NCBI GenBank assembly: GCA_902538445.1
Contig: CACBFE010000001.1
Location: 82,793-146,792 of the forward strand
Direction: 5' to 3'
Length of the DNA stretch: 64,000 nucleotides
From: an uncultured Pelagibacteraceae bacterium
GTDB taxonomy: Bacteria; Pseudomonadota; Alphaproteobacteria; Pelagibacterales; Pelagibacteraceae
Part shown: piece after piece, positions 51,103-56,225 of the stretch
How positions within the stretch are numbered: the stretch's first letter is position 1
Layout of the letters: the number at the start of each line of letters is the position of its first letter
Translations under genes and position numbers: made by a program
Notes under the pieces: generated by a model
What the model was told of the DNA's origin: nothing
What the model saw: the letters and a program-made list of their open reading frames with translations, nothing else
Databases searched by the model: none

Positions 51103-52392
51103 ATGAATCTATCCACTCTTTTTAGAACAAAAGAGAACCTTAACTTAGACAAAAATACCCTTACAATTCTTAGATATATTGCGATTTTTGGCCAATTTTT
51201 TGCTATCAGTGTTGTATATTTCTACCTTAAATTGCCGTTTCCGATTGAGTTAAGCTATTTCATAATTTGTGTAGGTTTGATTACCAACCTCTATTTACAA
51301 TTTGGAATTAAATTTAATCAACTAAAAGATTTATACGCATCAGTTTTTTTAGTTTATGATTTATTACAATTAAGCACTTTGTTATATTTGACTGGCGGTA
51401 TATTTAATCCATTTTGTTTTTTACTTATTATACCAGCAATAGTTTCATCTACTTTCTTAAGTATGGGGACTACTATTATTTTAGGATTGATTACATCATT
51501 ACTTTTATTAATTATTTCATTTTTTCACCTTCCTTTACCTGGAGAAGAAATGAATTTACTTCATTTTCCTAATTTTTATAAAACTGGAATAATTATATCA
51601 ATTTTTATTGGCTTAACTTTTTTGAGCTATTTCGGTATTCGCTTTGCAGGTGAAAAAAAGAAAACTTCTGAAGCGCTAAATAAATTACAAGAAGTAATCT
51701 ACAAAGAGTATGAATTAGAGTCCCTTGGAGGACAAGCAGCAGCAGCAGCTCACTCATTAGGGACTCCGCTGGCTACTATTTCTGTGGTGTCTAAAGAATT
51801 AAGAAAAGAAATTGGTGATAATAGTGAATTTTCAAAAGATATAGATCTATTAGTCAGTCAATCGAAAAGATGTAGTGAGATTTTAAAAAAAATTTCAAAA
51901 AAAGAAATAGAGAAAGATAGATTCTTTAGCTCAGTGAAATTAGAAGATCTTTTAGAAGAAATTTTAGACTCTTTTAAAGAAACATCTTCCAAAGAAATTA
52001 ATTTAAATTTAAAAAATGATATAAACAAAATAAAAGTTAAGAGATCACCAGAGATGATATATGGTTTAAGAAATTTTATAGGAAATGCTGTTAAGTTTTC
52101 AAAAAGCACGGTAAATGTTTTCTTATATAGTAACAGTAATGAAATTAAAATAATCGTAAATGATGATGGGCCTGGTTTTCCAGATGATATCATCCGTAAA
52201 ATTGGTGAGCCTTATATTAAATCAAAATCTGAAGAAATAAATCCAAATTCTGGACTAGGTCTCGGAACTTTTTTAGGAAAAACGCTGTTAGAAAGACAAA
52301 ATGCAAAATTGATTTTTAAAAAAGATAAAAGTTTAGGTGGTGCCTCAGTTATTATCACCTGGTCTCCAAAAAATATTTTACTTAACTCTTAA
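51103..52392 (+). CDS. regB: RegB/PrrB redox sensor histidine kinase
   Basis: Six-TM N-terminus; LGGQAAAAAHSLGTPLATISVV H-box, GLGLGTFLGKTLLE. Confidence 0.9.
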   Translation: MNLSTLFRTKENLNLDKNTLTILRYIAIFGQFFAISVVYFYLKLPFPIELSYFIICVGLITNLYLQFGIKFNQLKDLYASVFLVYDLLQLSTLLYLTGGIFNPFCFLLIIPAIVSSTFLSMGTTIILGLITSLLLLIISFFHLPLPGEEMNLLHFPNFYKTGIIISIFIGLTFLSYFGIRFAGEKKKTSEALNKLQEVIYKEYELESLGGQAAAAAHSLGTPLATISVVSKELRKEIGDNSEFSKDIDLLVSQSKRCSEILKKISKKEIEKDRFFSSVKLEDLLEEILDSFKETSSKEINLNLKNDINKIKVKRSPEMIYGLRNFIGNAVKFSKSTVNVFLYSNSNEIKIIVNDDGPGFPDDIIRKIGEPYIKSKSEEINPNSGLGLGTFLGKTLLERQNAKLIFKKDKSLGGASVIITWSPKNILLNS

Positions 52393-53263
52393 ATTCAAAA
52401 GAATATGAAAGAATTTTATAAGCTAATTTTGCTACTAAAAAATTATATGAATCAAATTTTTTTATTGGCGCGAGTTCATTAATATCAGCGCCAACTATAT
52501 TTGATATTTGACAGACTTTCTTTAATATAAGTAAAACATCGTCCCAAAATAACCCACCTGGTTCTGGAGTCCCTGTTGCTGGCATAATACTTGCATCAAA
52601 ACCATCTACATCAAAGGTTATATAAACTTGTTTATTCAGGAATAAATTTTTTAATTTTTTTAGATCCCAATTTTTTTTATCCTTAGCCCAAAAAATTTCT
52701 ATCCTACTTTTATTCTTATTATAAAAATCCATTTCAGATTTTGAGAGATTTCTGATTCCAAAAGATACAACTTTTAAATTTTTAAAATCGAGACATCTTT
52801 TAATTGCAGAAGCATGAGAAAACTTTTCCCCCTGATAACTTTCTCTTAAATCAGCATGAGCATCAAAATGAAGAAGGACTAATTCTTTATGTCTTTTAGC
52901 AAATGGTCTTATTGATCCTGGAGTGATAGAGTGTTCACCACCTAGGACTAATGGAAATTTTTTTTCAGAAAGGATCTTTTCATTAATTTCTGATAATTGA
53001 TTTAAAGCATCATTTAATTTACTTTTTATTTTAAAAGGTTTTAAAGTTTGAATACCTATTTCTCTGTAGGGCTCTTTGTTTAACTCTTCATCAAATAATT
53101 CAACTTGATGAGAGGCTTTAATTATTTCTTTTGGTCCATTCCTAGTTCCGCTACCGTAACTTACAGTTTTTTCTAAGCCGAACGGCACTACAACTACTTT
53201 TGCTTTATACTTGTGATCTACATCAAATCCCAAAAAGCCTTTTTTCTGGTCTAAGTAATTCAT
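52382..53263 (-). CDS. Agmatinase-family ureohydrolase
   Basis: LGGEHSIT, HFDAHADLRESY, YITFDVDGFDASIMPATGTPEPGG. Confidence 0.9.
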   Translation of the reverse strand: MNYLDQKKGFLGFDVDHKYKAKVVVVPFGLEKTVSYGSGTRNGPKEIIKASHQVELFDEELNKEPYREIGIQTLKPFKIKSKLNDALNQLSEINEKILSEKKFPLVLGGEHSITPGSIRPFAKRHKELVLLHFDAHADLRESYQGEKFSHASAIKRCLDFKNLKVVSFGIRNLSKSEMDFYNKNKSRIEIFWAKDKKNWDLKKLKNLFLNKQVYITFDVDGFDASIMPATGTPEPGGLFWDDVLLILKKVCQISNIVGADINELAPIKKFDSYNFLVAKLAYKILSYSFEFKS

Positions 53264-54313
53264 TCAAGATTTAAAAATTTGTGAAAAATTTCTTTTTGAT
53301 CTTTTTTTCCAATAAGCCCTGTGATAGGCATCACTTGCAATTAATGGCAATACACTCGTAGCCTCAGCAAATACCATTTGTTCTTTTGTAATATCAACTT
53401 TGCCCCACGAGCTAGCTTCTTTCAATGTAGAGCTACTACATGCGCCATCTCTAGTATCTGCAACAGTAATTTGTATAGCATATTTATGCATATCAACCTT
53501 CTTGCCTAATAACTCTGCGCAAACCACTGTGTCTTGAATGAAATTTTTAGGTACTCCTCCTCCAATCATCAGTAACCCTGACTGCTTTGACTGAAGTTTA
53601 ATTTCAGTCAACTCTCTAAATTCCCTTATAGAATCAATTGTTATATGTTTTTCAGGATTTTTTTCTTGGTGCATCACAAGCCCAAAACCTGCCGAGCTAT
53701 CAGTGAAAGCTGGGCAAAATATTGGTACATTATTATCGTACGCAGTCTCTATTAAAGATCCTTTTTTTTTTGAATTATTTTTAAGATATTTTCCCAACTC
53801 TAGAATGAATTCTCTCGAGGTATAAGTTTTAGGTTTTAATGTGTTAGCAATATCGCAAATAGTTTGATCACACGCTTGTAGTTCTTCTTCATCTATATAG
53901 GTATCATAAATTCTATCTACGTAATTATTTCTTAGCTCAGTATCATCTTGAAATTGAGATCCTTGGTAATGTTTGAAGCCTAGAGCTTCAAAAAAATCCA
54001 TATCAATAATAGAGGCCCCAGTAGCTACAATCGCATCGATCATATTATGTTTTACTAAATCAGTATATAAATTCATACATCCGCCTGCTGATGTTGAACC
54101 CGCTAAAGTTAAAAAAATTGAACACTCTTTATCTGCAAGCATTTCATTATAAATAGCCGCTGCTCTGGCTGTATCTCTAGATGTAAAAGACATTTTACTC
54201 ATCCCATCAATAATCTTGCGAGCATCAAAAGATTTGATATCGATGTGTTCGACCGGAGAATTAAGTAGGGATTTTTTATTGTGTCCAATTTTTGGACTAT
54301 TTTTTTTATTCAT
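53264..54313 (-). CDS. Deoxyhypusine synthase-like protein
   Basis: DVHS-type LTLAGSTSAGG, VATGASIIDMDF, CSSSTLKEASSWGKVDITKEQMVFAEATSVLPLI incl. WGK with conserved catalytic Lys. Confidence 0.88.
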   Translation of the reverse strand: MNKKNSPKIGHNKKSLLNSPVEHIDIKSFDARKIIDGMSKMSFTSRDTARAAAIYNEMLADKECSIFLTLAGSTSAGGCMNLYTDLVKHNMIDAIVATGASIIDMDFFEALGFKHYQGSQFQDDTELRNNYVDRIYDTYIDEEELQACDQTICDIANTLKPKTYTSREFILELGKYLKNNSKKKGSLIETAYDNNVPIFCPAFTDSSAGFGLVMHQEKNPEKHITIDSIREFRELTEIKLQSKQSGLLMIGGGVPKNFIQDTVVCAELLGKKVDMHKYAIQITVADTRDGACSSSTLKEASSWGKVDITKEQMVFAEATSVLPLIASDAYHRAYWKKRSKRNFSQIFKS

Positions 54314-55494
54314 TAAGCTACTAACGAACCAACCTTATCATTTGTACTATCGTACATAGATATAATTGGTTTGTCACTTAATTCGTGAATTTCGTTTGAA
54401 TAAAAACCATTAAAGTTTGTTCTGAAAGTAAGACTGTAAGCACCTAGTTGACCTAACTCTATATAGTCACCTTCTTTAATGTTATTTGGTAACAAAAAAG
54501 GACCTTTCATATAATCTAACCCATCACATGTTGGTCCAAAAAAACTAAAAGCAGTTAGCTTTTTAGACTGAACTCTTCCGTCTGTTATCATTCTGGATGG
54601 CAAAACAAAGTTTGGTGCACCAGCATCAAATAAAGATCCATATGTTCCATCATTTATATACAGGCTATTTTTTTTTCTTAAAATAACTTTAACAATTGTA
54701 GATCCACTTTCTGCAACAAGAGACCTACCAGGCTCACAAATTATTTTAGGCAATTTATCGAGTTTTAAATTATTAAGTTCTCTTTTAATTTCATCCATAT
54801 AATTTATTAATGGCTCAGGATTAAGGTCTGGGTAAATAGAGGGGAAACCACCACCGACATTTATTGTGTCTGGGACTATCTTTGTTTTTTTTATTATATT
54901 TCCTATTTCACGAATACCCTTGGAATAAGAAATTTTATGCATACATTGAGAACCAACATGGAAACTTATTCCAAGTTTTTTTGAATGATCTTTACATAAT
55001 CTCACTAGTCCCAATGCTTCAGATGGAAGAGCGCCAAATTTTCTAGATAAATCTATTTCTGCATGTTCATTTGAAATTGCAATTCTTACAAATAATTCTA
55101 AATCTTTTGCCTGATTAGTAGCATCTAAAATTTTTCTTAATTCATCTTTACTATCTAGAGAAAAACTCTTTACACCATAGTTAAAGTATGCTGAAGAAAT
55201 ACTTTCTTTGCTTTTAATCGTATGCATAAAATGCAATTTTGAGTCTGATTTAATTTTTTTAATAAGTTTAATTTCATTTAGAGAGGCAACATCAAATTGA
55301 TTGATGCCATTATTAATTATTTGTTTAATAATTTTTTCATTTGGATTAGTTTTTACAGCATAGAGCACTTCTCCTGGAAAATTTTCTTTAAAAAATTTTA
55401 CGGATTTTTTTATCTCGTTCAACCGTATGCAATATACGGGATAATCTGGTTTTAGTGAGTTAACTAGCTCGTTAACTGACTTAAATTTTCCCAT
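54313..55494 (-). CDS. Fold-III PLP decarboxylase (ornithine/lysine/arginine decarboxylase-like)
   Basis: LYAVKTNPN PLP lysine, SFHVGSQC, INVGGGFPSIY, CEPGRSLVAESG, FGPTCDGLD. Confidence 0.88.
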   Translation of the reverse strand: MGKFKSVNELVNSLKPDYPVYCIRLNEIKKSVKFFKENFPGEVLYAVKTNPNEKIIKQIINNGINQFDVASLNEIKLIKKIKSDSKLHFMHTIKSKESISSAYFNYGVKSFSLDSKDELRKILDATNQAKDLELFVRIAISNEHAEIDLSRKFGALPSEALGLVRLCKDHSKKLGISFHVGSQCMHKISYSKGIREIGNIIKKTKIVPDTINVGGGFPSIYPDLNPEPLINYMDEIKRELNNLKLDKLPKIICEPGRSLVAESGSTIVKVILRKKNSLYINDGTYGSLFDAGAPNFVLPSRMITDGRVQSKKLTAFSFFGPTCDGLDYMKGPFLLPNNIKEGDYIELGQLGAYSLTFRTNFNGFYSNEIHELSDKPIISMYDSTNDKVGSLVA

Positions 55495-55521
55495 TTCATG
55501 TGTCCCTCGTTATTTTACACA

Positions 55522-55580
55522 AAGGTTTTTTAAAAAATTTAGAAAAAAAACCTTAATTAATTCGCGTTTAAGGTTTTTTT
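55522..55580 (-). promoter_or_regulatory. Candidate cis-regulatory leader of the polyamine operon
   Basis: Three mutually complementary arms: AAGGTTTTTT (55522-55531), AAAAAAAACCTT (55543-55554), TAAGGTTTTTTT (55569-55580); middle arm can pair with either flank. Confidence 0.5.
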
Positions 55581-55652
55581 GACTTCATGTAAAGAAAAAA
55601 AAGCTATACTTAGACATTGTAATTTTACTCACAACACCCATATAAGTCCCGT

Positions 55653-56225
55653 ATGAGAGCACAAAAAAATATTCCAGAACAGCTAAAGTTGTCTGATTTT
55701 GCTGATAAATCACTACTCATCTTGGATGATGACGATCCACTGAGGGGACGACTTGCTAGAGCTATGGAAAAGAAGGGTTTTCAAGTAAAAGAGGCCAAAA
55801 CCGTGGCTGAAGGCCTCAAGATTGTGAAGGCCACACCACCGACGTTTGCCTGTGTCGATTTGAGACTTGAGGATGGCAGCGGCCTAGATGTTGTTAAAGA
55901 GCTATCTATAAATAAAAAAGAGGCCAGAATTGTGATGTTAACGGGATACGGGAATCTACCTACGGCTGTAGCAGCAGTTAAGGCAGGTGCTATAGATTAT
56001 ATAGCTAAACCAGTAGATGCGGACGACGTTGAGTCGGCGCTATTAGCATCTCCTGAGTCAAAAGCTAAACCACCAGAAAATCCAATGTCTGCAGACAGAG
56101 TTAAGTGGGAACATATTCATCGTGTATTTGAATTATGCAATAGAAACGTTTCAGAAACGGCTAGAAGATTAAAAATGCACAGAAGAACTCTTCAAAGAAT
56201 TCTATCTAAAAGATCTCCAAGATAA
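55653..56225 (+). CDS. regA: RegA/PrrA/ActR response regulator
   Basis: LLILDDDDPLRGRLARAMEKKGF, CVDLRLEDGSGLDVV, Fis-type HTH NRNVSETARRLKMHRRTLQRILSKRSPR. Confidence 0.95.
   Translation: MRAQKNIPEQLKLSDFADKSLLILDDDDPLRGRLARAMEKKGFQVKEAKTVAEGLKIVKATPPTFACVDLRLEDGSGLDVVKELSINKKEARIVMLTGYGNLPTAVAAVKAGAIDYIAKPVDADDVESALLASPESKAKPPENPMSADRVKWEHIHRVFELCNRNVSETARRLKMHRRTLQRILSKRSPR

Follow-up and report, generated by a model that had tools for sequence, protein, structure and literature searches.

The 64,000-nt stretch of DNA analysed here (the window) is part of a SAR11 genome, and the public contigs of its relatives are titled Pelagibacteraceae. Three genes of polyamine metabolism form a tight operon on its minus strand, in which the second is included because it overlaps the end of the first by one base:

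54313..55494, minus strand: ornithine (or lysine/ornithine) decarboxylase (ODC), the putatively regulated gene (Pfam Orn_Arg_deC_N and C-terminal domain)
53264..54313, minus strand: deoxyhypusine-synthase-like gene, probable homospermidine synthase (Pfam DS)
52382..53263, minus strand: arginase/agmatinase family gene of the same operon (Pfam Arginase)

The ODC gene is separated by an intergenic region of 158 nt from a divergent gene for a RegA-like response regulator (55653-56225, plus strand). A gene for a RegB-like histidine kinase with an AHSLGTPLATI box (51103-52392, plus strand) lies beyond the other end, and the polyamine operon is therefore flanked by the two regulatory genes, one per side.

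An earlier note on this DNA had placed a structured leader upstream of ODC, in which an arm B' (AAGGTTTTTTTT, 55554-55543) could pair with either C' (AAAAAAACCTTA, 55580-55569) or A' (AAAAAACCTT, 55531-55522), preceded by two mini-ORFs, MSKYSFFFFT* (55617-55585) and MKSKKP* (55588-55568), joined by an ATGA overlap, and followed by a GAGGGA Shine-Dalgarno (SD) sequence and the ODC start at 55494. All these elements lie on the minus strand exactly as described, and the presence of a conserved, structured 5' leader before ODC is borne out by the leaders of 92 relatives. The main sample comprised 92 distinct ODC leaders from SAR11 relatives with 97-70% ODC identity, and a second sample 66 ODC leaders from a sister genus of the Pelagibacteraceae; further ODC leaders were compared from other alpha-proteobacteria. 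Genus-level counts refer to 84 leaders, the 8 of 92 that are of sister-genus type being left out. The features of the promoter and leader, in the direction of transcription, are the following:

55588..55593, minus strand: promoter -35 element TTTACA; CTTTAC in essentially all 92 leaders
55565..55570, minus strand: promoter -10 element TAAACG, overlapping the C' arm; TAAATG, TATATG or TATATA in relatives
55555..55561, minus strand: predicted transcription start, ~55558, placed from the position of the -10 element
55545..55554, minus strand: 5' arm of hairpin H1, AAGGTTTTTT (B' of the earlier note), with compensatory changes
55522..55531, minus strand: 3' arm of H1, AAAAAACCTT (A' of the earlier note), with compensatory changes
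55517..55521, minus strand: 5' strand of hairpin H2, TGTGT; 98.5% of cells paired, and MFE fold in independent leaders
55504..55508, minus strand: Shine-Dalgarno GAGGG in the H2 loop; GRGGR conserved in leaders
55499..55503, minus strand: 3' strand of H2, ACACA; its final A doubles as the first base of the uORF AUG
55464..55499, minus strand: uORF MKWENLSQLTS*, 11 codons plus TAG, overlapping ODC in another frame; starts as AUG-AA-AUG
55471..55476, minus strand: 5' arm of hairpin H3, GTTAAC, in ODC codons 7-8; 97.4% of cells paired
55459..55464, minus strand: 3' arm of H3, GTTAAC, in ODC codons 11-12; uORF stop at the border of loop and arm

The promoter and the proposed attenuator

The promoter of this genome reads TTTACA-N17-TAAACG. 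Across the main sample, CTTTACAT is followed after 16-17 nt by TAAACG, TAAATG, TATATG or TATATA in 87 of 92 leaders, and CTTTAC with a -10 element at 15-18 nt recurs in 60 of the 66 sister-genus leaders. The ODC leaders of the Sphingomonadaceae carry TATATGCGCG at the corresponding position with respect to the leader. The site was not called by a generic consensus promoter scan, and its -10 element is a poor match to the consensus. Judged from this element, the start of transcription is expected near 55558, within the device that had been proposed as an attenuator. Because the -35 and -10 positions are conserved there, the C' arm would correspond to promoter spacer and -10 element, and it is therefore expected to be absent from the RNA, rather than acting as a competing arm; a start at ~55558 would likewise leave both mini-ORFs untranscribed.

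The comparison of leaders separates the two proposed pairings. In the arm-swap test on divergent leaders the B'-A' duplex is supported by covariation and the C'-B' duplex is not, the latter being no better than arm-swapped pairs (146 of 1000 permutations), with about half of these leaders left at 2-7 kcal/mol, so that competition between C'-B' and B'-A' was rejected. The two mini-ORFs, also rejected as leader elements, are not conserved: MSKYSFFFFT occurs in this genome alone among 96 upstream regions, and the ATG of the second is present in 4 of 92 leaders. No intrinsic terminator was called here by a terminator scan, no conserved terminator hairpin with a U-tract was found inside the transcript together with an antiterminator, and neither hairpin behaves as a conserved attenuator.

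Two further observations concern this segment. In close relatives, the C'-B' pairing with its T8 tract (55543-55580, minus strand) could terminate minus-strand read-through from upstream. Furthermore, a GC-rich discriminator (CGCG, TATATGCGCG) after the ODC -10 element (55564-55570 and relatives) is common to SAR11 and the Sphingomonadaceae; a GC-rich discriminator is often a sign of promoter control by growth rate or ppGpp.

Leader hairpins and the overlapping reading frame

In divergent leaders the B'-A' duplex has a mean energy of -8.32 kcal/mol, versus -5.83 +/- 0.35 for arm-swapped pairs, and none of 1000 permutations reaches the value of the leaders' own arms. In both the MAFFT and the structure-aware alignments, H1 shows 39-50 cells with compensatory changes against ~16 +/- 5 in shuffles (0 of 500) and 5-6 pairs with double changes; the covariation score is 0.280 versus 0.150 +/- 0.011 in the structure-aware alignment, which is itself fitted to the model. 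The arms shift between sequence classes yet match in each of them (AAGG/CCTT, AAGAG/CTCTT, AAGC/GCTT, AATGG/CCATT, GCTTC/GAAGC). Unaided RNAalifold returned both H1 and H2 on the structure-aware alignment; unguided on the MAFFT alignment it found H2 alone, H1 being missed because the U-tracts misalign. As judged from these substitution patterns, the B'-A' hairpin is kept by covariation to a greater extent than chance would allow.

For H2, covariation is silent because its strands are nearly invariant. The ACACA strand is retained in most leaders that lack the AUG, and the Shine-Dalgarno lies 4 nt before the first AUG and 9 nt before the ODC AUG. The full-length window MFE prefers a pairing of CCUUUGU with ACGAGGG, which is not conserved among leaders. 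The pairing of A' with the Shine-Dalgarno that this fold predicts was rejected, since in the divergent set the leaders' own arms gain nothing over exchanged ones (149 of 1000).

The proposal that a small ORF forms part of the leader holds in general terms, although the ORF concerned is neither of the two that had been named: it is an 11-codon ORF, missed in the earlier note, whose start lies 5 nt ahead of the ODC AUG. An AUG at -5 of the ODC AUG is present in 78 of 84 leaders, the next commonest offset reaching 8/84 and 6/84 lacking this AUG, whereas an ATG occupies -5 in 2 of the 51 long ORFs of the window. Among 79 distinct uORFs, 77 have a length of 11 codons. In the sister genus, ATG is absent from -5 in 55 of the 66 leaders, and the same 11-codon open length is found in 34 of 66, mostly without a start; the length was accordingly rejected as stand-alone evidence, half of the sister-genus leaders sharing it. 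The ODC Leu10 codon, which makes the TAG stop of the uORF, is YTA in 86 of 87 cases versus 62% at other leucines, and the sister genus has YTA in 43 of 65 (Fisher p 1e-8, kinship ignored). Measured against background codon usage, the uORF stop codon is thus, to judge from the alignments, under selection.

Synonymous entropy over ODC codons 2-11 amounts to 0.20-0.23 bits versus ~0.97-1.0 in the rest of the gene, and none of 366-371 other codon windows is as low. By the same measure, the first codons of neighbouring genes give 0.60 (DHS), 0.72 (regA), 0.43 (bioY) and 1.06 (arginase). Low synonymous variation near starts is common, and the constraint on Phe4 (TTT) and Val7 (GTT) is not attributed to the uORF because the sister genus has it too. 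In a single leader (L084), the sole exception at Leu10, the uORF reads ATG TAA and the Leu10 codon is now TTG, the two losses being correlated.

The stop of the uORF coincides with a likely third hairpin, H3, whose arms lie within the ODC coding sequence and whose 6-nt loop contains most of the stop codon. When its partner is slid along the sequence, at most 50% of cells pair. Two pairs show double changes, which are carried by two genomes (GCTAAC/GTTAGC and GTTGAC/ATCAAT), and Asn8 is AAC in 77 of 77 cases, AAT dominating at most other asparagines; the shuffle control is modest (6 of 500). A role of H3 as a genome-wide operator was rejected, the exact GTTAAC-N6-GTTAAC occurring at one site of the genome, in the ODC gene. 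The arrangement as a whole is specific to this gene: the SD-H2 pattern occurs in 20 of 26 genomes, once in each and at ODC wherever checked, and in 12 of 13 genomes a covariance model of the SAR11 leader gives one strong match each, again at ODC. The leader is an ODC element and not a dispersed motif.

Control by start choice and its rivals

These features are best accommodated, with a probability of roughly 0.6, by a region that consists of the promoter of the ODC-homospermidine operon and its short 5' leader of ~65 nt, and that controls the initiation of ODC translation. In this scheme, RNA polymerase would start just upstream of B', and the predicted ~65-nt RNA would carry H1, then H2, whose loop holds the Shine-Dalgarno, then AUG-AA-AUG. 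H2 would present the Shine-Dalgarno in its loop, or hide it when tight, with the first AUG at its base, and this single Shine-Dalgarno would serve two AUGs 2 nt apart. A ribosome taking the first AUG would make a wrong-frame 11-residue peptide and block the ODC AUG meanwhile, lowering ODC synthesis as a decoy, and one taking the second AUG would make ODC. The stability of H2, together with the speed at which the decoy ribosome clears its stop codon at the H3 hairpin within the ODC coding region, would determine the ratio of starts and thereby the output of ODC. The level of polyamine or ornithine would be the presumed signal. A bolder and rather doubtful extension is that polyamine or ornithine is sensed through the 11-residue peptide as it emerges, or through slow termination near H3, with the result that the ODC start is jammed, and that tandem start and uORF constitute an ancient core of alpha-proteobacterial ODC control set in unrelated folds in SAR11 and the Sphingomonadales.

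The closest rival, unlikely though deserving of attention, is that H1 is a plain 5'-terminal mRNA stabiliser, H2 incidental ribosome-binding-site sequence and the upstream AUG tolerated noise, with no regulation at all. A hairpin of changing sequence at the very 5' end has the look of a stabiliser, sister genera retain some 5' hairpin with all else altered, and the AUG is lost from some leaders; a selected stop codon together with the AUG within the same genus is harder to reconcile with noise, as is the same start geometry in the odc1 element of the Sphingomonadaceae, where both starts are used. Somewhat less probable again is a translational riboswitch in which H1 and H2 form a small aptamer that masks the Shine-Dalgarno through direct binding of polyamine or ornithine. 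The metabolic position, the tight H2 sequence and the Shine-Dalgarno inside the fold would suit it, and compact riboswitches such as SAM-V are known in SAR11 (PMC2704228), but the H1 loop is U/A-rich, H1 drifts freely, few unpaired bases beyond the Shine-Dalgarno are invariant, and for a different alpha-proteobacterial ODC the speF leader bound neither polyamines nor ornithine (PMC1273637).

The two remaining rivals are far less probable. The inverted repeat near the start site, adjoined by the divergent gene for a RegA-like regulator, could be a DNA operator with a repressor binding the B'-A' dyad at ~+4 to +37, which is very improbable given that the repeat, unlike a fixed operator, shifts through the AAGG, AAGAG, AAGC, AATGG and GCTTC classes with its complementarity kept. 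Least probable of all, by a little, is the transcription attenuator of the earlier note, with competing C'-B' and B'-A' hairpins governed by the two mini-ORFs: C'-B' plus T8 is terminator-shaped in this genome and its close relatives, and a longer transcript would form it, but C' falls between the conserved -35 and -10 elements, the pairing is absent from about half of the divergent leaders, and neither conserved mini-ORFs nor a called terminator accompany it.

Translational control of ODC by start choice, as a SAR11 variant of the odc1 kind, stands as the best reading. SAR11 are among the most abundant bacteria of the ocean and are thought to exert little transcriptional regulation over such pathways. 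Setting polyamine synthesis by the choice of start within a 65-nt leader would, if true, be a compact example of post-transcriptional control.

Comparison with known leader elements

Covariance models of known families do not recognise the SAR11 leader; speF and all other Rfam families were rejected for want of a match. The speF model (RF00518), a divergent form of which had been considered in the earlier note, finds nothing in the window at E<=10, nor in the genome as a whole; as a positive control it matches in other alpha-proteobacteria (at least in genomes G205, G234 and G283), where the downstream decarboxylase belongs to a different clade and is 31-33% identical. The speF element needs ~400 nt (PMC1273637), and it is excluded both by the lack of a match under this control and by an intergenic region of 158 nt that is too short for it. 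Both elements lead alpha-proteobacterial COG0019 decarboxylase genes, but a 153-position model and a ~400-nt leader contrast with the predicted ~65 nt of SAR11. In the enterobacterial speF system the leader is long and its ORF lies well upstream, whereas the SAR11 ORF overlaps the ODC start. That system has leader elements with a small upstream ORF that likewise control an ODC gene (PMC6386406). SAM-V and other SAR11 cis-RNAs are likewise compact 5' structures in SAR11 mRNAs, unlike the ODC leader in sequence, structure and gene, and the survey that describes them mentions no ornithine or decarboxylase leader (PMC2704228).

The ODC leaders of the sister genus (L183-L242) carry a hairpin resembling an intrinsic terminator followed by U8 (e.g., AAACTTGCATA..TATGCAGGTTTTTTTT), which lies a few nt downstream of the predicted transcription start and is followed by GTTAAATTTTTTTT and the Shine-Dalgarno. 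This hairpin is possibly an attenuator, different from the arrangement in this window.

The closest parallel is odc1 (uORF-25-1), a little-understood control element in other alpha-proteobacteria, which combines a stem masking the Shine-Dalgarno with a pair of UUG codons spaced by 2 nt and a uORF that invariably encodes 11 residues (PMC8632094); lacZ fusions of the Sphingomonas echinoides element in E. coli showed that both starts are used (PMC8632094). The element was recovered in the Sphingomonadaceae as SD-N4-UUG-N2-UUG, with 11 codons and a stop at ODC codon 10/11. A covariance model built from 19 Sphingomonadaceae leaders matches this family at E 1e-12 to 1e-20 and other alpha-proteobacteria weakly (L117 at E 6e-4, L137 at 0.08), with zero matches among the SAR11 leaders; an Rfam search with the Sphingomonadaceae members gave no match, odc1 being apparently absent from Rfam 15. 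The weak matches fall at ODC starts in other alpha-proteobacterial families (L117 1440-1497, L137 1456-1494, L121 2647-2695), where tandem AUG/GUG starts are seen (ATGAAATG, ATGAGGTG and GTGAATTG, respectively), in L137 also with an 11-codon uORF; these leaders are possibly intermediates between odc1 and the SAR11 form.

The differences between the two elements lie mostly in sequence and fold. SAR11 uses AUG/AUG where odc1 uses UUG/UUG, lacks the conserved odc1 nucleotides (CCGCUGCC...GGCAGC, GGUCCCUUG), has the additional coding-region hairpin H3, and carries two serial hairpins in place of the pseudoknotted P1; in a search for an odc1-type pseudoknot between 5' end and P1 loop that was not exhaustive, serial hairpins were the best-supported SAR11 fold. 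The likenesses, on the other hand, concern position and geometry. Both elements stand at the start of an alpha-proteobacterial ODC gene, begin right after the promoter and engage the Shine-Dalgarno and start in a stem, and the SAR11 form reads SD-N4-AUG-N2-AUG, with 11 codons and a stop at the same place in ODC. By analogy, the best reading is that the SAR11 leader would work like odc1, and common descent of the two is plausible. The geometry that they have in common suggests that the conserved functional core consists of the pair of starts and the decoy ORF, and not of the fold around them.
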